From Bolinopsis microptera (lineage: Eukaryota; Ctenophora; Tentaculata; Lobata; Bolinopsidae): 64,000 bases of DNA. The translations under genes were made by a program, and so were the position numbers. The notes beneath the pieces are model-generated. The model saw nothing but the letters and a program-made list of their open reading frames with translations, did not search any database and was not told the origin of the DNA. The stretch covers positions 9,235,669-9,299,668 of the forward strand of contig NC_087072.1 in assembly GCF_026151205.1 (NCBI RefSeq), given 5' to 3'. Shown here in pieces: positions 3,062-22,948 of the stretch (position 1 is the first letter of the stretch; every line of letters starts with the position of its first letter).

Positions 3062-3159
3062 TATAATAAATAAAGTCATATTTTAATTAACATTTAAGCT
3101 TGGTACAAACCCCAATTAAACTTTCCGTTTGTGTTTCACTTGTGTTTGTTGTTTGTTTG

Positions 3160-3416
3160 TTTATAGAACCCGTCCCCAATCTCGTATCGGAAAATGACTA
3201 AACTCAGGTCTGAGTGTGAATACGGGTGGTACCTGCAAGAGTGTTCATTAAGCATTTAGAGTTCTGTAAAACTGCAGTTACAATTGTGCTAGAGTATTTT
3301 TAGTATATACGATTGGTATCAGATATATATCCCTACATGCTTCCAAAATTTGTAAAGCCGTAGTACATACATATCACATTACACCGGAGCCTACACAGTG
3401 CAATCTCCCCCAGTTG
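3160..3416 (+). mobile_element. Internal-deletion derivative of the 7.1-kb LINE
   Basis: From 3160 to about 3332 the sequence matches the 5' end of the LINE at 12129 (GTTT repeats, GAACCCGTCCCCAATCTCGT, through ATACGATTGGTATCA). It then jumps directly to sequence matching the LINE 3' region at about 18856-18957 (GATATATATCCCTACATGC through CAATCTCC.CCAGT). Everything between, both ORFs included, is absent. The junction lies at a short shared TCA. Both outer borders differ from those of the large copy, so this is a separate insertion. Confidence 0.75.
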
Positions 3417-4185
3417 ATCTGCGCCGCGTATGTTTATATAATTATAAGCGCGCGGCGCAGACTGGAGGAAACCACACTCTGCAAGTTCGATCCAGTGCAA
3501 TGCTACATGTACGTACTACGGCTTCATCTCCAACTTTCTGCACAATGTACTGGAATGTTTTGAAGGAAAAGAAAGAACAAAAAAAATGATATATATAAAT
3601 AAAATCAGCGATTTAATGTTAGCCTTAGGAGGGTAACTTTAATTCCCTGGTTTCTAAAATCAGCTTTTTAAAAAAAATAATGATAAAGTATGTAACGTCG
3701 ATACCAAACCGATTATTGAGCGATAATAACTGAGTAGTTGATTCCTGGGTTGCGGAGTCATTCAGATGTTCCAGTTTTTTAATGTGGTTCTTGTTCAGTT
3801 CTTGACCAGAAGTGTCTAATGAAGTAAGTCAGACAAGCAAACTCTTCCTTATATGCTAATATAAGTCGTCTCAATCCCAGAAATTATGAATGATGACCCA
3901 GTGTAAAAGTGCAGAAATCGGCCGAAAATAACAAAGACTAAAAATAGTTAAAAAGTGACAGGATTCAAACACAAGGAAAATTAATAACTTAGAGGGTAAT
4001 AAGGAATATCTCCAAACGGAGTTTTCTGAGAGGGTGAGAGGTTCTTTAATTAGAGCTAATGTGATGGCTGAAAATTGACTGGTTAATTGTAGTATCAACT
4101 CAAAACAACAATGTGTCCAATCTCCATGATTTTACTGCCAGATAAGATACCACATCCTTTTACCTTCGCTTATACTTTATATTTA
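3417..4185. other. Intergenic, no gene recognised
   Basis: The stretch begins with a GC-rich inverted repeat (CTGCGCCGCG near 3419 against CGCGCGGCGCAG near 3449-3460). The rest is AT-rich with no domain-bearing frame. Confidence 0.5.
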
Positions 4186-4501
4186 CTAGCAGGAACCCGT
4201 ATAACCCTAAAATAGTGTCAAGACTCAAGAGACTAAATAATTATTACCAATTTAATTCGCGTTTTTGACACCACTTGGGGGTTCAAATTTTGGGCTCTAA
4301 AACTCCTATTCCTTGGCCAATTTTTTATTTTTTCATGCTGATTTGGAGGCCATTAAAGCATTTGACCCAGTCAAAAAAGTATCAGTTGTATATCTTTTAC
4401 GGTTTTTGCGGAAAGTCGCGTTAAAATTGATGCCGTGGTGTCAGTAAAATGGTACGGATAAACACATCCATATATATCGTCTCGCTTTATATATAGTAAG
4501 A
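4186..4501 (-). mobile_element. Non-autonomous Helitron-like element, copy 1
   Basis: Read on the minus strand, it begins TCTTACTATATATAAAGCGA and ends ACGGGTTCCTGCTAG followed by a host T. The TC start, CTAG end and A/T insertion site are Helitron features. A near-identical copy lies at 7256-7568 with the same two borders and unrelated flanks, which fixes the ends. It has no ORF, so it would depend on a Rep-helicase supplied elsewhere. I did not find a clear 3' subterminal hairpin, so a SINE or other short repeat remains possible. Confidence 0.6.
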
Positions 4502-4905
4502 TGATATTGATGCTGTGTTATAATAAATTGAGAATTACTGTTCACTCCATCAAGTTTTCTTTTTTTGGTGAATATAATTAAGGGAGGAAGCATCTCCTAC
4601 CTGTTACCTCCTCGCTCGGAAACAATATCAGCAACGTGGTGATCATTACCAATCACGTCAGTTGAGGACTCTATCCAGTTCTGATGTGACCACTGCTGCT
4701 CCACTCTGCGAAATGTCAGGCTTGTAAAACTGTCAACTTTGTGTGTCAGTAAATTTCCTCAAAGATGTTAGTTCTCAGCACAGCGTCACGGTTCGTAACT
4801 ACATGTTGCAAAATAATACTCGCGATGAATCATCTGCTGAATGATTGCACATCAACGCACTAACTATCTTTGGGCCGAGTAGTGATTCAAAGCGTGGGAG
4901 CTTAA
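4502..4905. other. Intergenic, no gene recognised
   Basis: No coding signal or repeat recognised. The stretch ends with the TTAA (4902-4905) that abuts the palindromic element. Confidence 0.5.
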
Positions 4906-5630
4906 GGGGGCAGGGGGGGGTCTTCATGGAAATTTTCTCAAAATCGACTTTTTAGTTGTTTCTGATAGAGGGGAGTAATATCTATCAGATGCTGTTAATC
5001 TCGTGGAAAAATATCGTTCCTAGCCGAAATTATTGCTGGTCAAAGGTCAGCGCGTGTGTGTAATTGTATTGCGCGAGCGATTTTTGATCGCGTGCCCTGA
5101 AAATCGAGTCTAAAAATCTATCTTCTCCTACATTTTTTGAGCAATCACCCTGAAACTTTCAGGATATGTTCTAGGGATCATTTAGAAGAGATGAGCCGGG
5201 CAGAATTTTGAGATGGGCCTTTTACATTTTTTTATTCGATTTTGAAAATCGTGGACCTCGTTTTTTGATGATTTTTCGAGGTCCACGATTTTCAAAATCG
5301 AATAAAAATTTTTTAAAGGCCTATCTCAAAATTCTGCCCGGCTCATCTCTTCTAAATGATCCTTAGAACATATCCTGAAAGTTTCAGGGTGATTGCTCAA
5401 AAAATGTAGGAGAAGATAGATTTTTAGACTCGATTTTCAGGGCACGCGATCAAAAATCGCTCGCGCAATACAATTACTCACACGCGCTGACCTTTGACCA
5501 GCAATAATTTCGGCTAGGAACGATATTTTTCCACGAGATCAAAAGCATCTGATAGATATTACTCCCCTCTATCAGAAACAACTAAAAAGTCGATTTTGAG
5601 AAAATTTCCATGAAGACCCCCCCTGCCCCC
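4906..5630. mobile_element. Near-perfect 725-bp palindromic foldback element in TTAA
   Basis: The left arm (4906-5260) and right arm (5277-5630) are almost exact reverse complements around a 16-nt loop (5261-5276). The ends read GGGGGCAGGGGGG inward, and both outer borders are TTAA (4902-4905, 5631-5634), the target site duplicated by piggyBac-type transposases. There is no ORF. A 50-bp form consisting only of the ends lies at 30670-30719. The few mismatches between the arms imply a recent origin or arm-to-arm conversion. Confidence 0.85.
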
Positions 5631-5634
5631 TTAA

Positions 5635-6439
5635 TAGGGATCGTTTCTCAGTATTGAATTCAGTTCTGAAGACAGAATCGAACCTCAGTCATATAATCAA
5701 TCGAAGAATCATCAACTATCTTAAATCTTATTTCATATTTATCGAGATTATTCAAGAATAATATGCTATGTGAACTTCTGGTTTTTTGGAAGATGAATGC
5801 ATAACAACAAGTCAACTGTGCACAATGACCCCGATCAGTTAATCTGCTACTACCTGGGGATAAAATCCGATTGTTCAAAATTACCTACCATGTCCAAAAT
5901 AACCCCTGTCCATAATTAGCCCACCCTACAGAGGCTTAACGTTTGAGCTAACAATTTCACTGCCACAAGTGACATTTTTATCTGATCAGGACAGTAGTAA
6001 ACTGACCAGTGACCACAGCTATACTCAGGGGTGTAGGAAGAGGGGGGGGGGCGGAAAGGGGCCAATATTTTTAGGCTCATTTGGCCAATCCGTCATTGCA
6101 TTATCCAAATTGTCTTACTGCTAAAGACAAAGTGTAGTTCAGATTTACATTCCTCATTGCTAGAATTACTTCCTTTAAGCAAATTGTCCAAAAAAATTGC
6201 AGATTCTCCCTCTTTGCAATTTTATTGACAATTATAAAACTTTTCTTATTTCCTTAATATTAGTACCTCGGTGAACTGAACTCTGTCGACCAACTGTTCA
6301 AATCAGTCGCATAGGTACTAATTTTTCCTGCCTATACCCGTCAGCATTTCTATAAGAATAATTTACTAATCGTACTGATCAACTGGAGGTGTGCTCAAAA
6401 TAAACGTGAAAAATCGAAAATAAGCTCAAAGTTTAGTAA
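5635..6439. other. Intergenic, repeat fragments only
   Basis: No gene recognised. A short motif around 6017 (CAGGGGTGTAGGAA followed by a G run) recurs inverted near 11985-12026, so it is a repeat fragment. The segment at 5985-6014 recurs inverted at 7569-7597 and may be an outer inverted-repeat pair. Confidence 0.45.
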
Positions 6440-7227
6440 TACCTTAATTCCCAAAAATTTGGGCGACAAAAAATTTGAGCGGGCCTTTCGCCCAAATTTT
6501 TTGCAGACCAAATTAATTGCATAAATCTTTTCCGTCTGCTAAATTTGTTGCTAACCAAACTTTTGGCATTTGGCCTGTGGCCCTGAAATCTATAGAAAGA
6601 TGGCTTTTTCTTCATATCTAAGTGAAATAATATTTGAAATTTTAGTTTTCTAATCCGTCATTCATGGCTTGACCAAGTAAAAAGGCTTATATTTTAAATG
6701 AATAGAAATAACTGGAATAGCTAACAGCTACTAATAAAACAAATGGCTAGAGGTATGGATAGCTAGAGATTTAAACAAGATCTGCAAATGGATTATCATC
6801 CACCGTAAAGTCTGATCTACAAGCATCAGTTATACTCGACTTCTCATTGAGAAGTTCTCAAAGCCTTTCCTTATGTCATCTGGCCTCCCTTTTAAATATA
6901 CAAAAAGTTCGTTGATACAACGAGCGTGTACTTCACGGATCACTGTCAAGCGGGTATCAATTTTCACATTGTCTGATGAAACTCCTCCATTGAGCTGACA
7001 CACCTACATGCTTAAAATTGAAAGCAAAATGACAGGAATAATAAGGAATAATAATGAACTGAGGCAAATATCTAACTGAAATTTTAGTGGAAAATCGTTC
7101 ATTTTTCGAAGAATTTGTGCCCAAATTTTCGGTCGCCCAAATGAGTTCAAATTTTCTGCCCAAATTTTTCGGGCTCAAATAAATTGTGCTCAATATAATG
7201 GCACACAAATTTTTGGGAACTAAGGTA
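6440..7227. mobile_element. Non-autonomous DNA transposon with terminal inverted repeats
   Basis: The left end ACCTTAATTCCCAAAAATTT (from 6441) is matched by an inverted right end near 7206-7226 with few differences. Further inverted similarity (GGGCGAC, CCCAAATTTT motifs) continues inside. No transposase is visible, and the target duplication is not certain. Confidence 0.6.
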
Positions 7228-7255
7228 AATTGGAAATAATATGGTTTATTAAGTA

Positions 7256-7568
7256 CTAGCAGGAACCCGTCTAACCCTAAAATGGTGTCAAGACTCAAGA
7301 GACTAAAACAATTATTACCTATTTAATTCGCATTTTTGACACCACTTGGGGTACCAAATTTGGGGCTCTAAAACTCCTATTTCTTGGCCAATTTTTTATT
7401 TTTTCATGCTGATTTGGAGGCCATTAAAGCATTCGACCCAGTCAAAAAAGTTTCAGTTGTATATCTTTTACGGTTTTTGCAGAAATTCGCGTTAAAGATG
7501 ATGCCGTGGTGTCAGTAAAATGGCACAGATAAATATATATATATCGTCTCGCTTTATATATAGTAAGA
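7256..7568 (-). mobile_element. Non-autonomous Helitron-like element, copy 2
   Basis: Near-identical to 4186-4501 with the same TC start and CTAG end on the minus strand and different flanking DNA. Two closely related copies this near each other imply recent activity or local re-insertion. Confidence 0.6.
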
Positions 7569-7940
7569 TAGCTGTGGTCAGTTTACTACCGTCCTCATAA
7601 TATACAAATTTCAAATGTGACAGTGCAATTGTTTCATATTGTAGCTCAAACTTGGCTCTCGTTCAAAGTTTTATCTATGTTGGTTTTATACCCGTAAACT
7701 CTTAATAACTTGTACGTCTTTGTTTTTCGGAGTCAGCCGATACTTTCCCTCATCACATCATGTCCATCATGTTTGTTGACATACCACGGGCCCATACCAC
7801 CATTAATATCATATCATTGTGCACCAACTAATTATATCCATTCCATTGGTCTCGACGTGATGAGGGACAGTCTACTCTTACAGTTATACTGATAGCTTCA
7901 AAAGTTCGAGCTGGAATATTGAACAATTGAGTTGTGGGTA
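7569..7940. other. Intergenic, no gene recognised
   Basis: Apart from the inverted match to 5985-6014 at its left edge, nothing is recognised. Confidence 0.4.
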
Positions 7941-8270
7941 TGGGAGCGTTCACATATTATGACGTCAACAGCCGAGGGGAAGGGCTGGTTTGGACTTTGG
8001 AAATGCTGAACGGGGGGCCGGGGGGGTCTGAGCCCTGCAGAAATGTAACGTGAATTTTGGGAAAAATTGTTGGTTCAAATCAATTTTATTAACCATTTCT
8101 ATACCCCCTCGCTGGCTGACGGGAGGGGGAAGTATTAAGTAAGGGGGTTAAGAAGGCGAGGGGGTCTGGCGAATGCTGACGTCATTAGGGGAGGGGGGTC
8201 ACTCAATACTGATAGTTGCTGACAGGGAGGGGGAGTAAAATTGGCTAAAATCAGTTAAGTTAGTTAGTTA
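7941..8270. repeat. G-rich repeat related to the MITE at 40.16 kb
   Basis: It opens with GGGAGCGTTCACATATTATG and carries GACGTCA, AATGCTGA and several runs of five or more G. The same order of motifs occurs at 40156-40343. The right end is unclear because it runs into GTTAACG-containing satellite-like sequence. Confidence 0.55.
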
Positions 8271-9000
8271 ACGTTACATTATACATTACATATTCTAGAG
8301 TTAACATTAGCTTGTGCCTTACATCTAGAGTTAACAATTAACATTAACTTGTGCCTTACATTTAGAGTTAATGTTACATTATCTATATTATATTTTAAAC
8401 TTGACGAAATTTCCCCGGCAACGGGGACATAGAAGAAAAAACACCGAAAATCGACCTCAAAATGACCCTCTGGTGATGCCAAACCCAGCTCGCAAATGGA
8501 GTTGAAACCTCGCCATTTTTAGCAGGGTTGTAGAAAAAGGATAGGAATAGGCTATAGCATTCTTAGAATTTTGATTTAGGCTTTAGATTTTTTATAATAA
8601 ACGTCGGAAGTGAGGTTAAATAATCGTTAGAATAATGGCGTTATTTTAGCAAAGGTTTACTGCGCTGTTGCGTAGCAACGATAAAAATGCACGTGCGCGA
8701 GCAAGAACATCTTAACTACGCGCGTTGTTATGCTGTATGCATGCTACGTCATAACTTCAAAACTAGCTCACATTTACGCTCACGCTATGACTTATATTCA
8801 TAACTTTGGTTGTGATTGGTATTTTTTGATGCGGTAAAAAGTATCGTTTTGGGAATCCGAATACTAACAACGCTGTCGCCATTGTTAAATAAATTCCATT
8901 ATGTCTACTGTATAACAGAGCTGTATGATGAAGAGAAATTAAAACATAACTGATTTTTAAAATTTCCTCGAACAAAGCTTTCGACTAGCGGGTTTCTAGT
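8271..9000. repeat. Degenerate satellite copies followed by unique DNA
   Basis: From 8271 to about 8395, diverged and spaced copies of the 30-bp satellite unit are seen (CTAGAGTTAAC blocks). From about 8400 to 9000 the sequence is unique, and no gene is recognised. Confidence 0.6.
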
Positions 9001-9915
9001 ACCTTATATCTGGAGTTAACGTTACATTATACCTTACATCTAGAGTTAACGTTACATTATACCTTACATTTAGAGTTAACGTTACATTATACCTTACATC
9101 TAGAGTTAACGTTACATCATACCTTACATCTAGAGTTAACGTTACATTATACCGTACATCTAGAGTTAACGTTACATTATACCTTTCATCTAGAGTTAAC
9201 GTTACATTATACCTTACATCTAGAGTTAACGTTACATTATACCTTACATTTAGAGTTAACGTTACATTATACCTTACATCTAGAGTTAACGTTACATTAT
9301 ACCGTACATCTAGAGTTAACGTTACATTATACCGTACATCTAGAGTTAACGTTACATTATACCTTACATCTAGAGTTAACGTTACATTATACCTTACATC
9401 TAGAGTTAACGTTACATTATACCGTACATCTAGAGTTAACGTTACATTATACCTTACATCTAGAGTTAACGTTACATTATACCTTACATCTAGAGTTAAC
9501 GTTACATTATACCTTACATCTAGAGTTATAACGTTACATTATACCTTACATCTAGAGTTAACGTTACATTATACCTTACATCTAGAGTTATAACGTTACA
9601 TTATACCTTTCATCTAGAGTTAACGTTACATTATACCTCACATCTAGAGTTATAACGTTACATTATACCTTACATCTAGAGTTAACGTTACATTATACCT
9701 TTCATCTAGAGTTAACGTTACATTATACCTTACATCTAGAGTTAACGTTACATTATACCGTACATCTAGAGTTAACGTCACATTATACTGTACATCTAGA
9801 GTTAACGTTACATTATACCTTTCATCTAGAGTTAACGTTACATTATACCTTACATGTAGAGTTATAACGTTACATTATTCCTTACATCTAGAGTTAACGT
9901 TACATTATACATTCA
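9001..9915. repeat. 30-bp tandem minisatellite, about 30 copies
   Basis: The unit is 30 bp and contains TCTAGAGTTAAC followed by GTTACATTATACC. Most units are identical or differ at one or two positions (CTTACAT, CGTACAT and CTTTCAT variants). Some carry a 2-bp insertion (GTTATAAC). Diverged copies precede the array in the same orientation (8271-8395), and others follow it inverted (about 10270-10520). Confidence 0.95.
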
Positions 9916-10255
9916 TGTTATTTTCTTACCTTTCTTTTGACGTATTACCAAGAAATCACTGGACCTCGTTAGTCGATAAGGATCCAGTTAGTGACGAGCT
10001 ATGAAGTAATCATTCGACCTCATTAATACTGATCCTGTCAGTTACGAACTATGAAGTTATTATTCTACCTCTTTAATGCTGATTCTGTCAGCGAAGAGTT
10101 GTGAAGAAATTAATGAAGACCTCGTTGATATCCTCGTTCAACAAATATACTCATCTGGTAACCAAATCCCTTATATGGCCTTCTTCTGAGGATCCGAAAA
10201 CTAAGTCTACCCATATCAGAACCTACTGACTTCATTAAACCAATCAATAAAAAGA
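9916..10255. repeat. Three diverged copies of a roughly 53-bp direct repeat
   Basis: Between about 9959 and 10115 a unit with ACCTC.TTA, GAT(C)CTGTCAG and GA(G)CTATGAAG recurs three times with many substitutions. No gene is present. Confidence 0.6.
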
Positions 10256-10690
10256 AGAAGAACTCTGGATACAACATAAGGTATAATGTAATGTTACAGT
10301 TAACTCTGAAGTAAGGTATACGATAATCTTAACTTTACATGTGGCGTGGAAGGTAATGTTAACTCACGAATCACGATGTAAGGTAAAATGTAACGTTAAC
10401 GGTATAATGTAACGTTAACTCTAGATGTACGGTATAATGTAATGTTAACTCTAGATGTAATGTATAATGGAACGTTAACTCCATATATATAAGGTATAAT
10501 GTAACATTAACTCTAAATTTAAGGCACAAGTAAATGGTAACTCAAATTGTAAGATACAAGGTAATATTAACTACATATGCTAAGTAAAAGGTAAGGTTAA
10601 CTCTAATTGTAAGATACAAGGTAATATTAATATGCTAAGTAAAAGGTAAGGTTAACTTTAAATTTGAGGCAAAAGGCAATAAGTAGTGTA
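10256..10690. repeat. Degenerate satellite copies in inverted orientation
   Basis: Blocks such as GGTATAATGTAACGTTAAC and CTCTAGATGTA are the reverse complement of the 9001-9915 unit, with increasing divergence to the right. Confidence 0.75.
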
Positions 10691-12116: not shown

Positions 12117-12454
12117 AATTAACGATTTGTTTGTTTGTTTAAAGAACCCGTCCCCAATCTCGTATCGGAAAATGACTAAACTCAGGTCTGAGTGTGAATA
12201 CGGGTGGTACCTGCAAGAGTGTTCATTAAGCATTTGGAATTCTCTAAAACTGCAGTTACAATTGTGCTAGAGTATTTTTAGTATATACGATTGGTATCAA
12301 TCATTTTTACTTTCATTCAATCATTTTTACTTTTCATTCAATCATTTTTACTTTCATTCAATCATTTTTACTTTACATTACGCATCAACATTTTTGCTCT
12401 CTAATCTTTTCACAAGTGCACTGACTTGCTGATAAGAAACTGCTTGATTTTATC

Positions 12455-14248
12455 ATGTCCGGCCATCTTAACAAGTCGACCTCTGCTGCTAACAAGACTC
12501 CTGCTGCTAAGAAGACTCCTGCTAGGAAGAACAGTATCACTAAACCTGCTGCCTCCGGGTCACCCTCCGACACGGAGGCACCCTCCCTCGGTATGTTGGG
12601 CTTTGGTGTGCCATCAATTTACACGTTTTGCGCTAAGACGTGTTTAAACGTTTTACCTACCCTCTCCAAAGAAGATATAGATTTTGAATACAACAGGCTC
12701 CGTTTAATTGACTCCGCATTTACTGGCAAAGCCACTAAGCCTGACACCAAACAAGCCGCCATCAAACAATATCTAACACGTCAAATAGTCGTTGATATAG
12801 ATCAATCCATGAATAGTCTAACTGCGGCAGCTAACTTACTTTCATGTACTGTTAATGGGGAGTGCGAGAAGGCGGTGAAACATCTAACAGAACGTGCTCT
12901 GACGGCGATCGAAGAAGTCTCTGATGAAACGAAGAAACAGACCACCCTCATCACACAGCAGACTGCAACTCTCATCTCTGAAGCCCCCTCGCAGAACCTC
13001 GACACTTCCAGAGAAGTTACAAGTATGCCTCATTCGCCGGTAAGACTTTTAGAGTGCGATCTTTCCGAGTTAACTTTTGATAAAGTTTCAAGTGAGCTAA
13101 ACTTTGACATGCACCACCCTGGAGGCCGTATCACAACTTATTATGGCTCCGTCCCCTACACGTACGGCAGAACCTCACATCCTGTCTCTGTTGGGCCACT
13201 TCCACCCACTCTGGAACATGCGTACGAGCAACTGCAAAAACTGGACGCTGACATAACCCCAGAGAACTACACTTGCCTTTGCACTTTATACAAGGACGGA
13301 TCGGTCGGCATACCGATGCATAATGACAGCGAACCTAGCATAATGGAGGATAGTCAAATTTATACAGTGTCGATTGGAGCACCTAGAAACCTTAGGATAT
13401 CAAGTACAGTAGGCCCCTTTGTCGAGCATAACATTCCACTTGAGCACGGTTCACTTTACGTCATGTCACGAGCAGATCAGGACAACTGGCGCCACGGCAT
13501 TGACCGCGATATCTCGGTAAGGTTTCCACGCATTTCACTGACTTTCCGCAAACTGAAACAACAAGAGTCATGCACTGTGCCTGCACCTCCAGCTCTCCAT
13601 CGGATACCACCTGTTGCCCCTCCAGCTCAGAACTCCTCCTCTCAGTCTCGTCACTCCAGGGTCCTATTCATACATGACTCTATTCATCGTGAAACACCTG
13701 AATGGTTGTTCGATCAGATACCCGGCCACCGCTGTCAGAAGCGTTTGAACTACCAGCTCATAGACTCTTTGGATCATGACCTCAAACATGCCAAAACTGT
13801 GATCATCTCATGTGGCATAAACGATCTTTCACGGTATGGAAAATCTGCCAAGAGTCTGGCTGATAACTTTTGTCCCCGCCTTGTCGAAAGCTGTAAGAGC
13901 AACAAAAGCACACAGTTTGTTTTTTGTGCTTTGTCTTTAACGAGAATTGGTTGGTTGAACAGAGAAATTGATGATTTTAATCTATGTATGGTGAATCTCG
14001 CCAGGGTGATACCCAATCTGACATTTTACGATGCCCATGCCGTTATCAAGCGGGTTCATTCATACTACGTATGGGACCGCAATGATAAGCATGGCATCCA
14101 TTTACATCACGATGTCAGAAGGGCTGTTGCATATGAACTTGTCAACTGCGTTGGCAAGTTATGTGGATCAGAACTGCCACGCCACAGGAACTGTGCGTGG
14201 CTCTACCACCATGAGCCTAACAGTCCTTTCAGATATCACCGTGGTTGA
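12455..14248 (+). CDS. LINE ORF1: AlkB-like 2OG-Fe(II) dioxygenase plus SGNH hydrolase
   Basis: 597 residues, intact. The first ~50 residues are rich in Lys, Ala, Pro and Ser, which suits nucleic-acid binding. Residues ~225-370 look like an AlkB-family dioxygenase: iron ligands H289 and D291 (MHNDSE) and H347 (WRHGI), then R359-x5-R365 (RISLTFR), which mirrors the RYNLTFR motif of E. coli AlkB that binds 2-oxoglutarate. Residues ~400-575 form an SGNH/GDSL hydrolase: Ser409 (HDSI), GxND at 454-457 (GIND), and D544/H549 (DKHGIHL). SGNH esterase domains are known in ORF1 of CR1-type LINEs. The dioxygenase half could repair or demethylate alkylated RNA or DNA of the element; that is inference. 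All catalytic residues seem present, so the domain is probably selected. Confidence 0.85.
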   Translation: MSGHLNKSTSAANKTPAAKKTPARKNSITKPAASGSPSDTEAPSLGMLGFGVPSIYTFCAKTCLNVLPTLSKEDIDFEYNRLRLIDSAFTGKATKPDTKQAAIKQYLTRQIVVDIDQSMNSLTAAANLLSCTVNGECEKAVKHLTERALTAIEEVSDETKKQTTLITQQTATLISEAPSQNLDTSREVTSMPHSPVRLLECDLSELTFDKVSSELNFDMHHPGGRITTYYGSVPYTYGRTSHPVSVGPLPPTLEHAYEQLQKLDADITPENYTCLCTLYKDGSVGIPMHNDSEPSIMEDSQIYTVSIGAPRNLRISSTVGPFVEHNIPLEHGSLYVMSRADQDNWRHGIDRDISVRFPRISLTFRKLKQQESCTVPAPPALHRIPPVAPPAQNSSSQSRHSRVLFIHDSIHRETPEWLFDQIPGHRCQKRLNYQLIDSLDHDLKHAKTVIISCGINDLSRYGKSAKSLADNFCPRLVESCKSNKSTQFVFCALSLTRIGWLNREIDDFNLCMVNLARVIPNLTFYDAHAVIKRVHSYYVWDRNDKHGIHLHHDVRRAVAYELVNCVGKLCGSELPRHRNCAWLYHHEPNSPFRYHRG

Positions 14249-14988
14249 GCACTAATCCATAAATGAATTAATTATATAAAAATCAACCTTTTCTGTCAAG
14301 CCCTTAAATTAAGCATATCATCAAGTATTTTCATATCTTTTTCAGTACATCCTCACTCCTCATCCAAATTCATCATTTGATTGCTACCACGATCGATTTT
14401 TGAAGAAATGATCTGATTGGTCGAAAATGCTTATCTTCTTAAGCTTATCAGATGAACTGATGAACATTCTTTCACTATCAAGCATTTTTGTCTCTTATCA
14501 TCCCACCATACATTTCCTAAAACATTTTCACATTACCAAACAAAACTGTGCACATTTTATTTAATAATTATAGAAGCTTCTCTGGTAAATCAGCATCAAG
14601 CACGTTTCCTCAGTCAAAGTTCAGTGCAACAGTATTTTCGAAAACTTCACAAACAACTAAATAGCAAAAATCACCACACAAAACTACACAACGAAACAAT
14701 TTCACACATACAAATCACAACGACTTAATATACACTTTAGGTAAAGTCATATTATCATACTGATAAGCCCGAAAATCGAGATAAGGGCACTATATTGTAA
14801 CATTTGATTTAGCGAATATTTTTAACAAATAAGTAGATAAGACTCAGATCACGATTCTGTAGCATACAGGACCTCCGGTTCTCGTGAAAGAATCTGATTT
14901 GCACTAGTATAGATATATTTTACGTTATTTATAAATTTATACATTTTTTATTCTCTAATTCCTCCACAAGCATAAGAGTTAACTTAAA
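14249..14988 (+). other. LINE inter-ORF spacer
   Basis: A 740-bp AT-rich spacer between ORF1 and ORF2 of the same element, with stops in all frames and no domain seen. It separates the ORFs too far for simple stop-restart translation, so how ORF2 is translated is unclear. Confidence 0.6.
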
Positions 14989-17900
14989 ATGGCAGCGAAT
15001 GGAAATGTTACTGATACTTCTGGTCATAAAATCAAAATAAAATGTGGTAGCTGTAGCGGCTGGTGTTATTCTTCCAAAAACATCCGCAGCTGTTCATGGT
15101 GCCAAAACAACGTCCACGTCAAATGTTTTAAGGAAAATTTAGGTTGTACAAGCTGTTGTGAAAGTCTTATTCCTGGATTTTACGCGACTTACTATGAAAT
15201 TTACGATGACTACAATAAGCTTAATTGCGCTATTTATAATCCATACGCTCAAAATAGTCGATGTAATCTTATTGGAGACGCCATGACCAATGAAGAGCAC
15301 CAGGATTCAACATGGAGTGACATTTCGGCTTTCCTAACTCACTGTCAGTATAAACAGCAACGTAACGTAAAAAGGTCGACATCCTCTCAACTTAAAACAT
15401 TTTCCATGAATATCAGATCCCTTTTCAAAAATATTGATCAACTACGAGAAGATATAGAAATATATGATAAGTATGATGTATTGTGTTTTAACGAAACTAA
15501 CTGCACACTAGAAAAATTGCCTAACGGAATAAACGACATCACATTAAATGGATTCCATGAACCGTATATCCAAGATCCCATCCGCACATCGGGTAAAGGT
15601 GGGGGGCTTGCCATATACATACACAAACGTGTAGCTGACTCTGATAAAATTGATATTTTCAATCCCAACCCTGAACCCTCAAATACTAGCGGCGAATTTC
15701 AATTTATCAAGATCCACCAGTGTAAAGGATATAATAGAACAAAGATAATTGGAAATGTTTATCGCTCTCCCGCTAGAAAACCTGAAGCATTTCTTGAAAT
15801 TTTTAAAAGTACGCTTCACAACCTGGGAAGACACTCTCGCAAACATATGACGTTACATGGAGATTTTAATCTAAATTTACTGAAGCACAGTAGCAACCAG
15901 GCATGTCAAAGCATTATAGATATTGCATCCTCTTACGGTTTCATCCAAATTGTATCACGTCCAACTCGCATAACAGACCACAGTGCCACGCTTATTGATC
16001 ATATCTACACGAACAATCTTGAAGATACAATAAGCTGCAACGTATTAACGACAGATCTGTCGGATCACTTAGCGATAGTTACAACAATTAATCTTGATAA
16101 TACATCCACCAGCAGTTACCGCTCCGCATCTTATAATCAAAATCCAACACAAACCAACGTACGTAGTTTTAATGAGGCCAACAACCATAAATTTAGAGAT
16201 TTAATAATGGAAGAAAATTGGTCTGTAATACTAACAAATACCCCTGATGCTAACCAGCAGTTTGATTGTTTAAATTCGGCTTACAACAGGATTTATAACG
16301 CTGCCTACCCGACAAAAAGACAGTCCGAGCGCAGACAAAATGAACGTGTTAATCCCAAACCATGGATACTGCCCTGGCTTGAAGAAGCTATAGAACGTAA
16401 AAATCAGGCATATCATGATTTTGTTAAGGAACCAGTTGATAGGAACCAGCTAAAATATGACCGTTTGAAAAAGTTTTGCACCAAACACGTTGACAAAGCC
16501 AAAAACATACACTACAAAAAATTCTTTGAACAACACAAAGATAATTCTAAGAAGCAGTGGCAGATGATTAACGGACTTCTGAATAGGAAACCAGCCAAAC
16601 CTACATCGATAAAACTGTCGGACGAAAACGGACAAGTCAGCACTCCGGCAGCAGTAGCAGAAAAATTTAATGATCACTTCTCAAACATCGCTCCAAAAAT
16701 TAAATCTGAAATTAGTAGTAGGACCACTTTCGATCCTGGTGGGGCCCAGGGGACACTACGTAACCCTTCTCCAAATAGTATCTACATAAAACCAGTCACA
16801 ACTACCGAAGTTCAAGACGTTATTAACCTATTTAAGAATAAAGCTACTCTTGACACCAAAATCCAACCACTCAAAATTGCCAACAGCTGTCATAATTTTA
16901 CCACTGTATTGGCCCACGTTGTTAACAGCTCGTTCGAACAAGGGGTCTTTCCCCAAGCCTTGAAAACGGCAAAAGTAGTTCCTGTACATAAATGTGGATC
17001 TAAAACTGACATCAAAAATTACAGACCGATATCTCTACTTGCCACTTTCTCAAAAGTCTACGAAAAGCTTATGCACAATCGAGTCATAAATTTCTTGGAT
17101 ACCTACAATATACTTTGTGAAAATCAATACGGCTTCCGCCCAGGTAGGTCTTGTGAACATGCACTTCTTAATGCTAAAGACAGAATCCTCAATTCAATGT
17201 CTAAAAAGCAAGTTACTTTGCTCCTCTTGATTGACTTTAGCAAAGCCTTTGACCTTGTGGATCACTCCATACTCCTGAATAAGCTCGAGCACTATGGCAT
17301 AAGAGGTCTAGCTTTAAACTGGTTTAAATCATATCTTATGAACAGAAACCAGTTTGTATCAATTGGATCCTCTGAATCCTCAGCCAATCCAATTATTTAC
17401 GGTGTACCCCAAGGTTCAATTTTGGGACCTCTCCTTTTTATAATCTACATAAACGATCTTCCTCAAATATCAGAAATAGCTAATTTCATCATGTACGCAG
17501 ATGATGCAAACATTTTCCTAACAGGAGAAAATATAAACGAGGTTTATGATAAGCTCAAAATTCTTAGCGATGTCTTAGTTAAATGGGTAGATAACAACGG
17601 ATTAGCTCTAAATCTTAAAAAAACGAATTATATGATCTTTTCTCGACAAAGAAACCTCATTTATCGCGATGTAGTAATTTCTGGTGTCACAATCGAAAGA
17701 AAAACAGAAGCCCGTTTCTTAGGTGTTATAATAGATAACAAACTGAACTGGTCGCAACATATTTCTGCCATGAAAATGAAAATGGCCAGATACATTGGAG
17801 TCATGTACAAACTTAAAAAATATTTGCCTCTGGAAGCACGTTTACAAATATATCACAGCTTTGTGCAGTCTCACCTTAATTACTGCTCCCTCGTCTGGGG

Positions 17901-18474
17901 TTTTGCTGCCAAATCCCATATAGAAACACTATTTGTTAAACAGAAAATGGGTCTTAGAGCAATACTACCAGGTTTTGTTAATTACTGGTACAAAGATGGT
18001 ACACCACCAGCAAGTACCAAGTCTGGTTTCTATGTACACAAAATATTGACAGTTCAAAGTATCATCGTGAAGAACGCATTAGTTTTTATACATAAGCTAA
18101 AAAACTTCCCAAGTCTAGTGCCTCCCTCTATAAAGAAAACAATACCTAACAGTGCACCAATATTTAACGTCGCCGATCCGGATTCGAGTCTTACAACTTT
18201 ATGGTCAGATGAATACGGTAAACACCCTTACAATAATTCAGTATTCTACAAAGGTCCACTATTAGCAATAAACAGATATAGTGTCGCAGCAACTTCCTTG
18301 CCAAGTCTATTCAACCTTAACATCTACAAAAGGTGCATAAAAAACATGCTCATTGATCAACAAAACGAGGGCATTGCAGACGAATGGCCTAACTTTATGT
18401 TATACAATATAACGGGACTAAGGAAATCAGAGCGCAACATCAACCGTAATGCTAATAATAACTCTGTCCCATAA
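14989..18474 (+). CDS. LINE ORF2: zinc finger, AP-type endonuclease, reverse transcriptase
   Basis: 1161 residues, intact. A Cys/His-rich PHD-like finger lies at ~19-60. An exonuclease-endonuclease-phosphatase domain follows (~135-370), with the Asn of SMNIRSL (~141), Glu of CFNETNC (~171), HGDFNLNL (~290) and the terminal SDH (~358). The reverse transcriptase (~640-890) shows FRPGRSCEH, IDFSKAFD, PQGSILGPLLF and the catalytic YADD at 836-839. The order and motifs fit the CR1/L2/Daphne group of non-LTR retrotransposons. The C-terminal part (~900-1161) matches the usual downstream region of such RTs (SHLNYCSLVWG). The enzyme would nick the target and copy the element RNA in place. Confidence 0.92.
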   Translation: MAANGNVTDTSGHKIKIKCGSCSGWCYSSKNIRSCSWCQNNVHVKCFKENLGCTSCCESLIPGFYATYYEIYDDYNKLNCAIYNPYAQNSRCNLIGDAMTNEEHQDSTWSDISAFLTHCQYKQQRNVKRSTSSQLKTFSMNIRSLFKNIDQLREDIEIYDKYDVLCFNETNCTLEKLPNGINDITLNGFHEPYIQDPIRTSGKGGGLAIYIHKRVADSDKIDIFNPNPEPSNTSGEFQFIKIHQCKGYNRTKIIGNVYRSPARKPEAFLEIFKSTLHNLGRHSRKHMTLHGDFNLNLLKHSSNQACQSIIDIASSYGFIQIVSRPTRITDHSATLIDHIYTNNLEDTISCNVLTTDLSDHLAIVTTINLDNTSTSSYRSASYNQNPTQTNVRSFNEANNHKFRDLIMEENWSVILTNTPDANQQFDCLNSAYNRIYNAAYPTKRQSERRQNERVNPKPWILPWLEEAIERKNQAYHDFVKEPVDRNQLKYDRLKKFCTKHVDKAKNIHYKKFFEQHKDNSKKQWQMINGLLNRKPAKPTSIKLSDENGQVSTPAAVAEKFNDHFSNIAPKIKSEISSRTTFDPGGAQGTLRNPSPNSIYIKPVTTTEVQDVINLFKNKATLDTKIQPLKIANSCHNFTTVLAHVVNSSFEQGVFPQALKTAKVVPVHKCGSKTDIKNYRPISLLATFSKVYEKLMHNRVINFLDTYNILCENQYGFRPGRSCEHALLNAKDRILNSMSKKQVTLLLLIDFSKAFDLVDHSILLNKLEHYGIRGLALNWFKSYLMNRNQFVSIGSSESSANPIIYGVPQGSILGPLLFIIYINDLPQISEIANFIMYADDANIFLTGENINEVYDKLKILSDVLVKWVDNNGLALNLKKTNYMIFSRQRNLIYRDVVISGVTIERKTEARFLGVIIDNKLNWSQHISAMKMKMARYIGVMYKLKKYLPLEARLQIYHSFVQSHLNYCSLVWGFAAKSHIETLFVKQKMGLRAILPGFVNYWYKDGTPPASTKSGFYVHKILTVQSIIVKNALVFIHKLKNFPSLVPPSIKKTIPNSAPIFNVADPDSSLTTLWSDEYGKHPYNNSVFYKGPLLAINRYSVAATSLPSLFNLNIYKRCIKNMLIDQQNEGIADEWPNFMLYNITGLRKSERNINRNANNNSVP

Positions 18475-19230
18475 GCACGCCATCACAGAATCAATTTCAC
18501 TGCATACCATCTCAGTTACACTGCCATCAATTCGCCAGCAAAAACGGCATGACGCTATGCGACTGATAACAGTCGTTAAATTTTAAAAATTTTGGAATTG
18601 CTAGCTAGCAGTAGCTATGCGCCTGTTTCCACTCTAACAACTCTAAAAGCATATTAATATGATAATTTCAACTAAAGGCAACTTTATATGTGCTCAGCTA
18701 TGTTTTGTTTCGACAAGCTCTATTATATACATTTTAATCGTTTTAATGAGATCTAATCTTGTATGAGTTTTGAGTTTGAATTGAAAACACTTATTATATA
18801 TATTATTTTTTGAGTAAACATTGGCTGGTACTTCGGGCCGGTCCCCAACAAAAATCAGATATATATCCCTACATGCTTCCAAAATTTGTAAAGCCGTAGT
18901 ACATACATATCACATTACACCGGAGCCTACACAGTGCAATCTCCTCCAGTCGCGTATTCATAGTTCTGCTTATTTGGTTCACAGGTTTTTCCTAGACTTT
19001 GTGATCGGACTTAACTCTCTGTACCAGTATTTCGTTATCTTAGGAGTTATTCCGCTTTTATTTTATTCCCATTCTCGACTCCTCGCTAGCAGTCCGGTTA
19101 ATTTAGTACCTCTAAGTACCTTATCATTTAATCATTATATTAGGACTTATTAAAGAACATCTCACCCTCTAAGAAAACTCACCGCTTCGTTCATTTTTAT
19201 AGCTTTATTCTTTTTATCTACAAGTCGCGT
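18475..19230 (+). other. LINE 3' untranslated tail
   Basis: Sequence from the ORF2 stop to the right target duplication. The block at 18856-18957 is repeated in the short derivative at 3332-3416. There is no poly(A) or obvious microsatellite at the + strand 3' border. Confidence 0.6.
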
Positions 19231-19242
19231 AATTAACGATTT

Positions 19243-19484
19243 AAGATGTAACTCATTGGATAATTTCCTATGCGACTGTTCTGTATGTCAGATAGATCAT
19301 AGATTAGGCTGATTTAATGTGAAATTAGAAACTCTGTGGCTTTCGTCGCATGAGAAGAAGTGCAAATTACACTCCTTCGTGGTTGACCTATCAGCACTTA
19401 TTTACTTTCAAGTGTTAGTTTGAAACATTGTGTGCATATTCTACTTCATTGTTTGTGTGATTATTTTAATTTTTAATTGCAGTA
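19243..19484 (+). promoter_or_regulatory. Upstream region and leader acceptor site of sulfotransferase gene 1
   Basis: A pyrimidine-rich tract and AG (tttttaattgcag) end one base pair plus T-A before the ATG at 19485. The same acceptor-like sequence precedes every array member, implying a leader intron whose 3' end lies just before the start codon. The donor exon is not identified. Confidence 0.5.
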
Positions 19485-20579
19485 ATGGTAGAGGATGGTC
19501 AATCTGTTATAGTTAAAAAACGGTACATATTCCTTGCGATTTTTGCTCTTGCAGCGGTATTCGTTCTCCTGCTTCCTGACCGAGCTAAAACCGTCTCCAA
19601 TCTTCATGTAAAAACTGTTATTTCAAAGATTTCCTCTGATTCTTCGCTCGTAGAAACGACTGCATCTTCTTCAGAAAATATCAATCACACTTCTTTAGAA
19701 GACGAAACATTTTCGGTTTTGGAACCACCCTCTCAAAAATGGGCTCAAGACCAGTTTGAAAAATCACTGGTCTTAATGCACCAAAAATACAGTCAACCAA
19801 GTATGTGGGAAAACTGTGGTATGCAAACATATTATTTCGAGAACATAAAAACAATTTTCACGGGAATTCCAAAGACAGGATGTTCCAACTGGATTGAGGC
19901 TCTGCTCCGAGCTAACGGAGATCTAAAGAACCAACTAAATCCAACTGAGGTGAAAAAGGTACACGGTGGAATTAGCAACAAGCACAGAATACCGAACATA
20001 TTGAACCGCTTTAACGCCTCAGTATTCCAACAAGATTTCAGTTTTACCGTGGTCAGGAACCCCTGGACCAGAATGGTTTCTGGTTACAGAGATAAATTAT
20101 CAGACGAGAAAACTCAGGGAGGTTCGTTTCGGTCTATAGGGAAAAATATTGTGAAAGAGATGAGAGGCATTACTAACGAGGAAGCACGTGATAAGTTATA
20201 CCCAACGTTTACAGAGTTTGCTTCATGGCTCGTCAACCACAATGGATCGGAGAACCGACATTTTTACCAACAATTCAGAACTTTGTGTATACCTGCAGCT
20301 AGATACGATTATATTATCCCTCTTGAGTATGCTGGACCCTTAAGTCAGGATGTCTGGGGTAGAATCAATGCAAGCACCTCATTGCTAGGATCATATGATG
20401 AATCATCGGACCCTCGCCTTCAAAAATCAACCCTTTATGCTAAGGAGTGGTTTTCAAAGATTGACGAGAACACAATTGAGAAATTGTATAATATTTTTAG
20501 AATAGACTTTGCTCTTATGGACTATAGTAACTTTACACATCCAGATTTCCCGTTACCTTTGCATGATTTAAAACAATGA
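19485..20579 (+). CDS. Carbohydrate sulfotransferase, array copy 1
   Basis: 364 residues, a single coding exon. A type II Golgi enzyme of the Sulfotransfer_2 (CHST8-14-like) family is inferred: basic N-terminus, membrane anchor at ~14-31 (YIFLAIFALAAVFVLLL), a Ser/Thr-rich stem, then the catalytic domain. The PAPS-binding motifs are PKTGCSNW (129-136) for the 5'-phosphosulfate and VRNPWTRMVSGYRDK (from 190) for the 3'-phosphate. Several N-glycosylation sequons are present (NHT, NAS, NGS, NFT). It would transfer sulfate from PAPS to a glycan hydroxyl; the acceptor cannot be told. AATAAA (20580-20585) follows the stop directly. Copy 1 differs from copies 2-4 in the NEEARD and LVNHNGSENRHFYQQFR segments, features shared in part with copy 5. 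Confidence 0.9.
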   Translation: MVEDGQSVIVKKRYIFLAIFALAAVFVLLLPDRAKTVSNLHVKTVISKISSDSSLVETTASSSENINHTSLEDETFSVLEPPSQKWAQDQFEKSLVLMHQKYSQPSMWENCGMQTYYFENIKTIFTGIPKTGCSNWIEALLRANGDLKNQLNPTEVKKVHGGISNKHRIPNILNRFNASVFQQDFSFTVVRNPWTRMVSGYRDKLSDEKTQGGSFRSIGKNIVKEMRGITNEEARDKLYPTFTEFASWLVNHNGSENRHFYQQFRTLCIPAARYDYIIPLEYAGPLSQDVWGRINASTSLLGSYDESSDPRLQKSTLYAKEWFSKIDENTIEKLYNIFRIDFALMDYSNFTHPDFPLPLHDLKQ

Positions 20580-21242
20580 AATAAAGTTAAAATTAAATTG
20601 ACTTTTAAATTTTACAATAATTATATGCGAAAATGAAAAATTACCAATTAATCCCAATGTAGTTCCCGGTGACCAGGAAGTTACCAGTGTTCAATAATTG
20701 TGCTTTGATACAAGAGTAGATAACTTCAATCGAGACGATCAAATTTTCAAACTTGCTCCATGTCTTGAAATTGGTTATTAGGAAATTTCTAGATGCGTAA
20801 AGGAGTCCGAGTAAGCCGTGATGAATAAATGATTTAAGATGCAATTATTATTAGATTATTTCCTGATACGAGATTGGGGACAAGTACATTACAAGTACAT
20901 TACACGTGTACTTATTACTTTTTGTATACTGAGCTTGCGTTAAACCTAATACTGCGACAAACGGAAAGCCCAAAGGTACACGTCAAATGTGGCTTTATGT
21001 AGTGAAGTGTACTTTAATGACTCGCTATCTCAACTGAAGTGTGTCATCAGTCCGATAATTTGTGTTGATATTTGATAACATGCAGTGAAGCAGCATGAAA
21101 AGAAGTCGCATGAAAAGAAGTCGCATGAAAAGAAGTGCAGACTGTAGAGTGTGGATTGACAAAGAATTGAAGAAGGTGTTATGTGCACAAAATCTTCTCA
21201 ATTAAATCATTTGTGTGGTTATTTTAGTCTTGAATTGCAGTA
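20580..21242 (+). repeat. Array spacer 1 (3' flank of copy 1, leader of copy 2)
   Basis: The spacer shares all its blocks with those after copies 2-4: a conserved 3' flank, then GATACGAGATTGGGGAC (the tail of the SINE-like repeat, about 20866) with ACAAGTACATT repeats, then tandem TCGCATGAAAAGAAG units and the TTGAATTGCAG acceptor. No other gene is present. Confidence 0.75.
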
Positions 21243-22328
21243 ATGGTAGAGGATGGTAAATCTGTTAGAGTTAAAAAACGATACGTATTCCTTGGGATTT
21301 TTGCTCTTTCAGCAGTATTCGTCCTCCTGTTTCCTGACCAAGCTACAGCCATCTCCAATCTTCGTATAAAAACTGTTAGTGTTACCTCAACGCCTTCTCC
21401 GGGCATAGAAACGACTGCATCTTCTTCAGAAAATATCAATCACATATCTTTAGAAGACGAAACATTTTCGGTTTTGAAACCACCCTCTCAAAAATGGGCT
21501 CAAGAACAGTTTAAAAAAGCATTGGTCTTAATGGACCAAAAATACAGTCAACCAAGTATGTGGGAAAACTGTGGAAAGCAAACATATTATTTCGAGAACA
21601 TAAAAACAATTTTCACGGGAATTCCAAAGACAGGATGTTCCAACTGGATTGAGGCTCTGCTCCGAGCTAACGGAGATCTAAAGAACCAACTAAATCCAAC
21701 TGAGGTGAAAAAGGTACACGGTGGAATTAGCAACAAGCACAGAATACCGAACATATTGAACCGCTTTAACGCCTCAGAATTCCAACAAGATTTCAGTTTT
21801 ACCGTGATCAGGAACCCCTGGACCAGAATGGTTTCTGGTTACAGGGATAAATTATCAGACGAGAAAACTCAGGGAGGTTCGTTTCGGTCTTTAGGGAAAA
21901 ATATTGTGAAAGAGATGAGAGGCATTACTAACAAGCAAGAGCTTGATAAGTTATATCCAACTTTTACAGAGTTTGCATTATGGCTCGTCAAGCACAATGG
22001 ATCGGGTAACCCACATTTTCACCAACAATTCAAAACTTTGTGTATACCTGCAGCTAGATACGATTATATTATCCCTCTTGAGTATGCTGGACCCTTAAGT
22101 CAGGATGTCTGGGGTAGAATCAATGCAAGCACCTCATTGCTAGGATCATATGATGAATCATCGGACCCTCGCCTTCAAAAATCAGCCTTTTATGCTAAGG
22201 AGTGGTTTTCAAAGATCGACGAGAACACAATTGAGAAATTGTATAATATTTTTAGAATAGACTTTGCTCTTATGGACTATAGTAACTTTACACATCCAGA
22301 TTTCCCGTTACCTTTGCATGATATATAA
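21243..22328 (+). CDS. Carbohydrate sulfotransferase, array copy 2
   Basis: 361 residues, intact. Same plan as copy 1: anchor (YVFLGIFALSAVFVLLF), stem, PKTGCSNW and RNPWTRMVSGYRDK motifs, C-terminal SNFTHPDFPLPLHD. It ends HDI because the terminal codons differ (stop TAA, 22326-22328), whereas copies 1, 3 and 4 end HDLKQ. Distinguishing residues are LKPPSQ, VIRNPW and LWLVKHNGSGNPHFHQQFK. The start is fixed by the shared acceptor (cag-TA-ATG). Probable Golgi glycan sulfotransferase; substrate unknown. Confidence 0.9.
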   Translation: MVEDGKSVRVKKRYVFLGIFALSAVFVLLFPDQATAISNLRIKTVSVTSTPSPGIETTASSSENINHISLEDETFSVLKPPSQKWAQEQFKKALVLMDQKYSQPSMWENCGKQTYYFENIKTIFTGIPKTGCSNWIEALLRANGDLKNQLNPTEVKKVHGGISNKHRIPNILNRFNASEFQQDFSFTVIRNPWTRMVSGYRDKLSDEKTQGGSFRSLGKNIVKEMRGITNKQELDKLYPTFTEFALWLVKHNGSGNPHFHQQFKTLCIPAARYDYIIPLEYAGPLSQDVWGRINASTSLLGSYDESSDPRLQKSAFYAKEWFSKIDENTIEKLYNIFRIDFALMDYSNFTHPDFPLPLHDI

Positions 22329-22948
22329 AACAATGAAATTAAATTAAAATTAAATTGACTTTTAAATTTTACAATAATTATATGCGAAAATGGAAAATTA
22401 CCAATTAATCCCATAGTTCCCGGTGACCAGGAAGTTACCAGTGTTCAATAATTGTGTTTTGATACAAGAGTAGATAATTTCAATCGAGACGATCAAATTT
22501 TCAAACTTGCTCCATGTCTTGAAATTGGTTATTAGGAAATTTCAATATGCGTAAAGAAGTCCGAGTAAGCCGTGATAAATAAATAATTTAAGATGCAACT
22601 GAGTTAGATTATTTCCTGATACGAGATTGGGGACAAGTACATTACAAGTACATTACACGTGTACTTATTACTTTTTGTATACTGAGCTTGCGTTAAACTT
22701 AATACTGCGACAAACGGAAAGCCCAAATGTACACGTCAAATGTGGCTTTATGTAGTGAAGTGTGTCATTAGTCCGATAATTTGTGCTGATATTTGATAAC
22801 ATACAGTGAAGCCGCATGAAAAGAAGTCGCATGAAAAGAAGTGCAGACTGTAGAGTGTAGATTGACAAAGAATTCAAGAAGGTTTTGTGTGCACAAAACC
22901 TTCTCAATTAAATCATTTGTGGGGTTATTTTAGTCTTGAATTGCAGTA
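22329..22948 (+). repeat. Array spacer 2
   Basis: Homologous to spacer 1 and slightly shorter, lacking a segment of about 40 bp around the CACGTCAAATGTGG block. It carries the SINE-tail remnant near 22618 and the repeated GCATGAAAAGAAGT motif. No gene is present. Confidence 0.75.

Follow-up and report, generated by a model that had tools for sequence, protein, structure and literature searches.

Does the first open reading frame of a LINE in Bolinopsis microptera join an AlkB-type dioxygenase to an SGNH hydrolase, and what would a retrotransposon do with such an enzyme? The window, by which we mean the whole stretch of DNA analyzed here (64,000 nt of NC_087072.1), contains an intact LINE in which ORF1 and ORF2 are both open. 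A preliminary description of this DNA had assigned to ORF1 a full set of AlkB ligand residues beside an SGNH esterase domain of the CR1 type, and had proposed that the product is a candidate nucleic-acid demethylase.

The mobile unit and the domains of ORF1

The limits of the element can be read from an uninterrupted copy of the host repeat in the same window. On this empty site (3149-3414), the sequence 12127-12299 (97.7% identity) joins 18854-18950 (99.0%) directly, and the two flanks overlap by four bases, ATCA. Because the flanks fuse at the empty site and share ATCA, the unit is placed at about 12300-18853 with a 4-bp target-site duplication, and the AlkB domain therefore sits within the mobile unit; a host gene lying beside a LINE is ruled out by the empty site. 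The features of the window are as follows.

3149..3414, + strand: host repeat without the insertion (empty site)
~12300..18853, + strand: whole LINE insertion, about 6.55 kb, from comparison with the uninterrupted repeat copy
12296..12299, no strand assigned: ATCA, read from the flank overlap as the left copy of the 4-bp target-site duplication
18854..18857, no strand assigned: ATCA, read likewise as the right copy
12297..12379, + strand: array with which the element begins at its 5' end, a 20-bp sequence repeated in tandem about four times
12455..14248, + strand: ORF1, 597 aa, an intact open frame
13094..13564, + strand: AlkB domain, residues 214-370 (Pfam stretch 233-365), from PF13532 and the ALKBH3 match
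13319..13327, + strand: H289-x-D291, Fe(II) ligands, aligned with ALKBH3
13493..13495, + strand: H347, Fe(II) ligand, aligned with ALKBH3
13529..13549, + strand: R359-ISLTF-R365, with Ser361 where the host-type AlkBs of this genome have Asn
13625..14164, + strand: divergent SGNH/GDSL-like region, residues 391-570, from a weak Pfam match and a profile of the subfamilies
14989..18474, + strand: ORF2, 1,161 aa, an open frame
15409..16068, + strand: endonuclease of ORF2, PF03372 (E = 7.1e-6; 26.4 bits; cut-off, 24.5)
17002..17733, + strand: reverse transcriptase (RT) of ORF2, PF00078 (E = 6.7e-38, over the cut-off)

Homology to the sequence upstream in the window begins within the 20-bp array in six of the seven copies of the window's own family A that were compared (L002 to L005, L007, and L010), and the seventh, L006, showed no match to that upstream sequence. 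ORF2 resembles LINE-1 ORF2p and, more weakly, R2 proteins. An endonuclease and an RT in ORF2, a short target-site duplication, and 5'-truncated copies (see below) characterize the element as an APE-type LINE. When a special 3' hairpin was sought, the 3' end folded no better than shuffled sequences (z, 0.05 and -0.37).

Three other stretches of the window were recorded. A row of near-identical open frames, which by eye resemble carbohydrate sulfotransferases, occupies 19452-28810; the frame at 19452-20500 shares about 93% identity with those at 21210-22255, 22916-23961, 25360-26405, and 27730-28810. Upstream of the LINE, 8266-10681 contains arrays with a spacing of about 30 bases, and part of 10501-10670 has many reverse-strand matches of about 70% within this region. 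Finally, a fragment at 50737-50973 is 28% identical to ORF2 residues 893-971 and is perhaps what remains of another LINE.

That this intact ORF1 contains an AlkB domain is borne out by the Pfam search: PF13532 (2OG-FeII_Oxy_2) matches residues 233-365 with an E value of 2e-17 (64.5 bits; cut-off, 31.2), so far above the cut-off that a chance motif, also ruled out by the ALKBH3 match, is excluded. Among solved structures, the closest by sequence is human ALKBH3 (E = 1.8e-16), followed by ALKBH2, and the ligands named in the preliminary description (H289, D291, H347, R359, and R365) align with those of ALKBH3. A profile built from eight element AlkBs gives the same order (ALKBH3, 5e-24; ALKBH2, 4e-23), with far weaker matches to ALKBH8, bacterial AlkB, and a DNA N6-methyladenine demethylase (8haz; E = 4.3e-5).

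The C-terminal half of ORF1 was claimed to be the SGNH esterase of CR1-type ORF1 proteins, and this claim holds in part. An SGNH-like match exists, and Ser409, Asn456, and His549 stand at the expected SGNH places; however, the Lipase_GDSL_2 match (E = 0.0097) lies under the Pfam cut-off, His546 stands where the triad Asp would be, and the His that is specific to transposons is absent. Against solved structures, a profile of the six subfamilies described below reached a GDSL lipase (3p94) at an E value of 0.13, and the window domain alone had no match up to an E value of 5. For ZfL2-1, the published analysis (PMC3905857) gives a triad of S143, D279, and H282, an oxyanion hole of N195 and G165, and the transposon-specific H191 and S228. 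The H191 place, which by the ZfL2-1 numbering lies four residues ahead of the Asn in the GxN block, is Ser452 in the window; the block-II Gly corresponding to G165 and a counterpart of S228 were not located in the window SGNH region. In all six window-type subfamilies the Ser and His of the Ser-Asp-His triad are present and the Asp is replaced by His (A and B), Arg (C), or Asn (D, E, and F). The acid of the DxxH motif is Asp in eight other lineages, in the frame at L051 (see below), and in the aligned 3p94.

Because this acid is replaced, the window-type esterase may be inactive or may work without the acid. With the DxxH acid absent from six subfamilies and the ZfL2-1-type His absent as well, the SGNH half is, judged by these residues, a divergent domain and not simply a CR1 esterase. 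The SGNH regions of other lineages are clearer, a profile of five of them matching PAF acetylhydrolase-like structures (best E value, 1.4e-9). When the window-type and other-lineage profiles were compared with each other, the match was too weak (probability, 8.5%; E = 0.004) to establish common descent of the two SGNH sets. For a coiled coil ahead of the SGNH region, the best stretch by a home-made heptad score (residues 112-139) was equalled or exceeded by 32 of 1,000 shuffles.

AlkB in copies of the LINE and in other elements

The survey covered one eukaryote genome of 265 Mb. ORF1 has at least 75 matches there (73 of 812 candidates scored), which fall into six subfamilies; B to F are 31 to 62% identical to the window's subfamily A. 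Among long frames, identities to A are 96 to 100% for A, about 61 to 62% for B, and, by BLAST, 29 to 32% for C, D, E, and F; for these last four, the ORF1 search itself gave 31 to 38%. An ORF1 frame of 560 aa or longer was recovered at 34 loci, and the key AlkB columns were read in all 34. A single odd copy is thus ruled out by the many copies and the six subfamilies. Individual deviations include a Lys at residue 293 in L006 (subfamily A) and the loss of seven residues around Tyr235 in L040 (subfamily D).

ORF2 is open in L033 (subfamily E; 1,204 aa) and L034 (F; 1,161 aa), lies in three pieces in L031 (C), and in the 7 kb read at L032 (D) is represented only by a 568-aa N-terminal piece. At least 42 ORF2 match rows were obtained (40 of 7,124 candidates scored), 31 of which start at or before ORF2 residue 39. 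For 23 of these 31, an ORF1 match lies upstream on the same strand, and it covers residues 289-365 in 20 of the 31. Eight have no ORF1 match; the four that were read are all 5' truncated, with homology ending inside ORF1 or in the intergenic stretch. Such truncation is usual for LINEs.

The search for other LINEs with an AlkB-containing ORF1, which the preliminary description had called for, yielded further LINE lineages as well as a Helitron-type frame. PF13532 has at least 151 matches in the genome (150 of 587 candidates scored), and AlkB frames recur at lengths of 551, 611, 644 to 646, 676, and 707 aa, some exceeding 2,000 aa. Among the further loci sampled, five have an RT frame downstream of the AlkB ORF1.

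L059: AlkB ORF1 of 551 aa
L060: AlkB ORF1 of 613 aa
L061: AlkB ORF1 of 706 aa
L062: AlkB ORF1 of 843 aa
L063: AlkB ORF1 of 779 aa

These downstream RTs are 25 to 32% identical to the window ORF2, and the endonuclease stretch is also matched in L060, L061, and L063; PHD matches under the cut-off occur in L061 and L063. At L064, a giant frame (2583-9899) encodes, in order, an SGNH-like region, AlkB, DUF6570, and Helitron_like_N, and L053 (3.4 kb read) is its close relative; with these frames, AlkB is present in a second class of mobile element. When 10 further element ORFs were scanned, AlkB was above the cut-off in every one; none passed the GDSL cut-off, and seven (all except L061, L031, and L034) have GDSL matches below it, with E values of 0.04 to 9e-6. 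AlkB in ORF1 is recurrent across lineages and is not a single fusion.

From repetition and similarity, we infer that the 645-, 676-, and 777-aa types (L052, L054 to L058, L065, and L066), for which the sequence read included no RT belonging to them, are element-type. Three further loci (L049, L050, and L051) resemble cellular AlkB genes: their motif is RxNLTFR, and no RT frame was seen in the roughly 3.4 kb inspected. Several arrangements were recorded along the way. At L051, an SGNH-type frame lies about 0.7 kb downstream of the host-type AlkB frame (296 aa) on the same strand; at L058, the 645-aa type has next to it (2673-3290, - strand) a further, incomplete frame from a different element, with AlkB and SGNH-like parts; and at L062 (1152-3680) and L066, AlkB is near the front and an SGNH-like region at the end of the LINE ORF1.

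Because several kinds of mobile element in this genome carry an AlkB, the domain is probably used by the elements rather than accidental. That one element captured a host gene by chance, leaving it functionless, is contradicted by the six subfamilies and the further lineages with an intact AlkB, and we regard it as very improbable. Outside this genome, no confirmed relative was found among viral contigs queried with ORF2 or the AlkB stretch or among prokaryote genomes queried with ORF1; an alignment query returned one 28% match (L071), with no frame of at least 150 aa over the match. Among plasmids and phages, the AlkB stretch matched 74 plasmid and 7 phage records, all below 60% identity; the annotations listed for them read AlkB, 2OG oxygenase, or hypothetical protein or are blank.

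Conservation of the ligands and possible exchange of ORF1

After one partial domain was dropped from 67 AlkB domain hits, 66 were kept, of which 63 are element-type and 3 host-type. Family copies lacking the ligand residues had been named in advance as evidence against the AlkB assignment; all five canonical ligands are intact in each of the 63 element-type domains, many of which are near-identical copies. In an alignment of 15 lineage representatives, 145 columns are free of gaps; 16 of these do not vary, and all five ligands are included (chance P = 9e-6). At two sites where all three host-type AlkBs have Asn, the window has Thr277 and Ser361; both sites may bear on 2-oxoglutarate binding. 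Asn occurs at the first site in 13 of the 63 element-type domains. At the second, all 63 have Ser, and the Ser of RxSxTFR was considered as an element-only mark; it is not diagnostic, because two of five bacterial or phage AlkBs share it.

The retention of the ligands bears on an alternative in which AlkB is a nearly or wholly noncatalytic nucleic-acid-binding module, replacing an RNA-binding domain that is missing from ORF1 proteins of the esterase type. Pfam detects neither an RRM nor a zinc knuckle in the window ORF1, and, according to PMC3905857, a structural RNA-binding domain is absent from every Repbase esterase ORF1p, both of which agree with such a replacement. However, binding alone would need no metal site, and every one of the 63 element-type domains retains the ligands for metal, cosubstrate, and substrate, at an AlkB identity of 23 to 48% between the compared lineages; we therefore consider a pure binding module decidedly unlikely.

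The preliminary description had also proposed dN/dS across copies as a check of function, and here the outcome is divided. Between A and B, the AlkB ratio is low, about 0.10 (dN, 0.242; dS, about 2.4 and saturated; NG86), the corresponding ratios being 0.07 for SGNH and 0.25 for the N terminus (NG86), and pN/pS for AlkB is likewise low within subfamily E (0.12). In contrast, it is 0.36 within B, 0.60 within D, and 0.85 within the window's subfamily A, the last value resting on 46 synonymous and 131 nonsynonymous changes summed over 28 nonindependent pairs. Within A, the N-terminal part (0.20) and SGNH (0.11) have lower values, and subfamilies C and F have almost no internal changes. The newest A copies thus give no picture of strong AlkB constraint, the changes being few and nonindependent.

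The RT tree, which contains elements of this genome only and a partial piece for subfamily C, groups the 551- and 613-aa LINEs, the 706- and 779-aa LINEs, and E, A, F, and C, with the 843-aa LINE far out. The AlkB tree agrees with it in part: 551 and 613 pair (together with 645), A to F form a group, and 843 stands apart. For 706, which groups at 82/87 with 779, 676, and the Helitrons in one AlkB tree, the agreement is weak, because its placement is not resolved in the larger tree that includes bacterial, phage, and host-type rows. In this larger tree, a single clade (96/93) contains 14 of the 16 element-type AlkBs; the two Helitron rows lie inside it, adjoining 676 and 779 (95/89), and the three host-type AlkBs lie outside. 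LINE_843 and TE777 are placed with rows from bacteria and of the host type, and the AlkB of L062/L066 is perhaps a separate capture; a single clade for all 16 element-type rows is neither supported by the tree nor rejected (AU p = 0.31).

The clearest disagreement concerns subfamily F. Its RT (L034) joins C (99/98) and then A (97/97), whereas its AlkB joins E (94/90; 97/93 in the larger tree). Likewise, A and F share 64% identity in RT and 29% in AlkB, and E and F share 51% in RT and 48% in AlkB. Because the RT of F is closest to C and A and its AlkB is closest to E, the comparison points to an exchange of ORF1 between elements. Together with the nesting of the Helitron AlkBs in the element clade, this mismatch leads us to suggest, tentatively but as a serious possibility, that AlkB and its SGNH-like partner constitute an accessory cassette, kept with its ligands intact by dissimilar transposons of this one genome (Helitrons and several LINE lineages) and passed from one to another, as an element-borne eraser of nucleic-acid methylation, whether that methylation is host defence or damage.

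Possible roles and comparison with known systems

The reading that we favor, with a probability of about 0.5, is that this intact LINE encodes an ORF1p with an ALKBH3/ALKBH2-like Fe(II)/2-oxoglutarate dioxygenase, predicted from its sequence to demethylate the element's own RNA or cDNA. ALKBH3 and ALKBH2 act on m1A and m3C, with ALKBH3 preferring single strands, and both marks block reverse transcription. The predicted RNP role, activity, substrate, and benefit would fit together as follows: ORF1p would assemble on the RNA of its own element, and AlkB would oxidatively strip methyl groups from that RNA or from the first-strand cDNA. The likeliest targets would be m1A and m3C as blocks to the element's RT, m6A being possible, and an AlkB in the RNP protein could thereby clear the template for the RT of the same element. 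The SGNH-like domain may have a structural or membrane role, and its ordinary esterase catalysis may be lost. m6A is a less obvious target because, in human cells, L1 is reported to be favored by m6A writers and suppressed by the eraser ALKBH5 (PMC7873242). Precedents for the favored reading are the orchid Ty3/gypsy AlkB (PMC9289625), active as a demethylase in vitro, and the conserved AlkBs of plant RNA viruses (PMC544882).

Two alternatives concern the target of the same enzyme. (i) It may work in trans, targeting either marks on the DNA or chromatin of the host (e.g., 6mA) or host transcripts, and so blunt silencing. It is established that Helitrons have no RNA template to clear, and template clearing therefore fails to explain the AlkB of L064; this Helitron-type, DNA-copied element keeps a DNA- or host-directed role open, and the weak match of the clade profile to 8haz (E = 4.3e-5) is in line with it. 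Nevertheless, ALKBH3 and ALKBH2 match better by 16 to 19 orders of magnitude, and we hold trans action to be rather unlikely. (ii) The enzyme may be a general repair activity that shields element RNA or cDNA from alkylation damage instead of removing regulated marks. The similarity to ALKBH2 and ALKBH3 would suit such an activity, as would the AlkBs of plant RNA viruses, judged functional from their conservation (PMC544882); we think it improbable, and sequence alone cannot separate it from the demethylation of the element's own RNA or cDNA that we favor.

If the domain is active, LINE ORF1 proteins would include an enzyme that modifies nucleic acids, and these elements would allow one to test in a natural setting whether LINE copying is limited by methylation of RNA or cDNA. 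Direct testing is feasible because the 34 long ORF1 frames (560 aa or more), like the further lineages, come from one genome. The Helitron-type AlkB raises the question of which mark or lesion RNA-copied and DNA-copied elements must both remove.

A search of titles and abstract starts among 5.39 million open-licence papers returned no report of an AlkB in a LINE; subscription papers, preprints, and Repbase lay outside this search and may contain one. The words AlkB, dioxygenase, and oxygenase are all absent from a survey of ORF1 in Jockey, CR1, and L2 (PMC4120745), and the ZfL2-1 paper (PMC3905857) calls esterase ORF1ps unique among ORF1ps for enzymatic function. The type IV ORF1 of CR1/L2 elements such as ZfL2-1 (PMC3905857, PMC4120745) likewise has a C-terminal SGNH-like domain and no RRM found; the window ORF1 differs in having AlkB ahead of SGNH, a replaced DxxH acid, and Ser452 at the H191 place. 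Bdelloid LTR retrotransposons with a GDSL esterase ORF3 (PMC5408684, in which the word AlkB is absent) show, as here, that accessory enzyme frames are common to unlike retroelements. Human ALKBH3 and ALKBH2, the top solved-structure matches with aligned ligands, are cellular enzymes. Plant flexiviruses, which like this element are RNA-copying parasites, have an AlkB with HxD, H, and RxxxxxR as well, but theirs belongs to a replicase polyprotein with neither RT nor SGNH (PMC544882). A retrotransposon-encoded AlkB-type domain is also described for an orchid Ty3/gypsy element, where it binds RNA and has demethylase activity in vitro (PMC9289625); that AlkB occupies an additional ORF of a plant LTR element, whereas the one described here is known from sequence and is fused into the ORF1 of a LINE.
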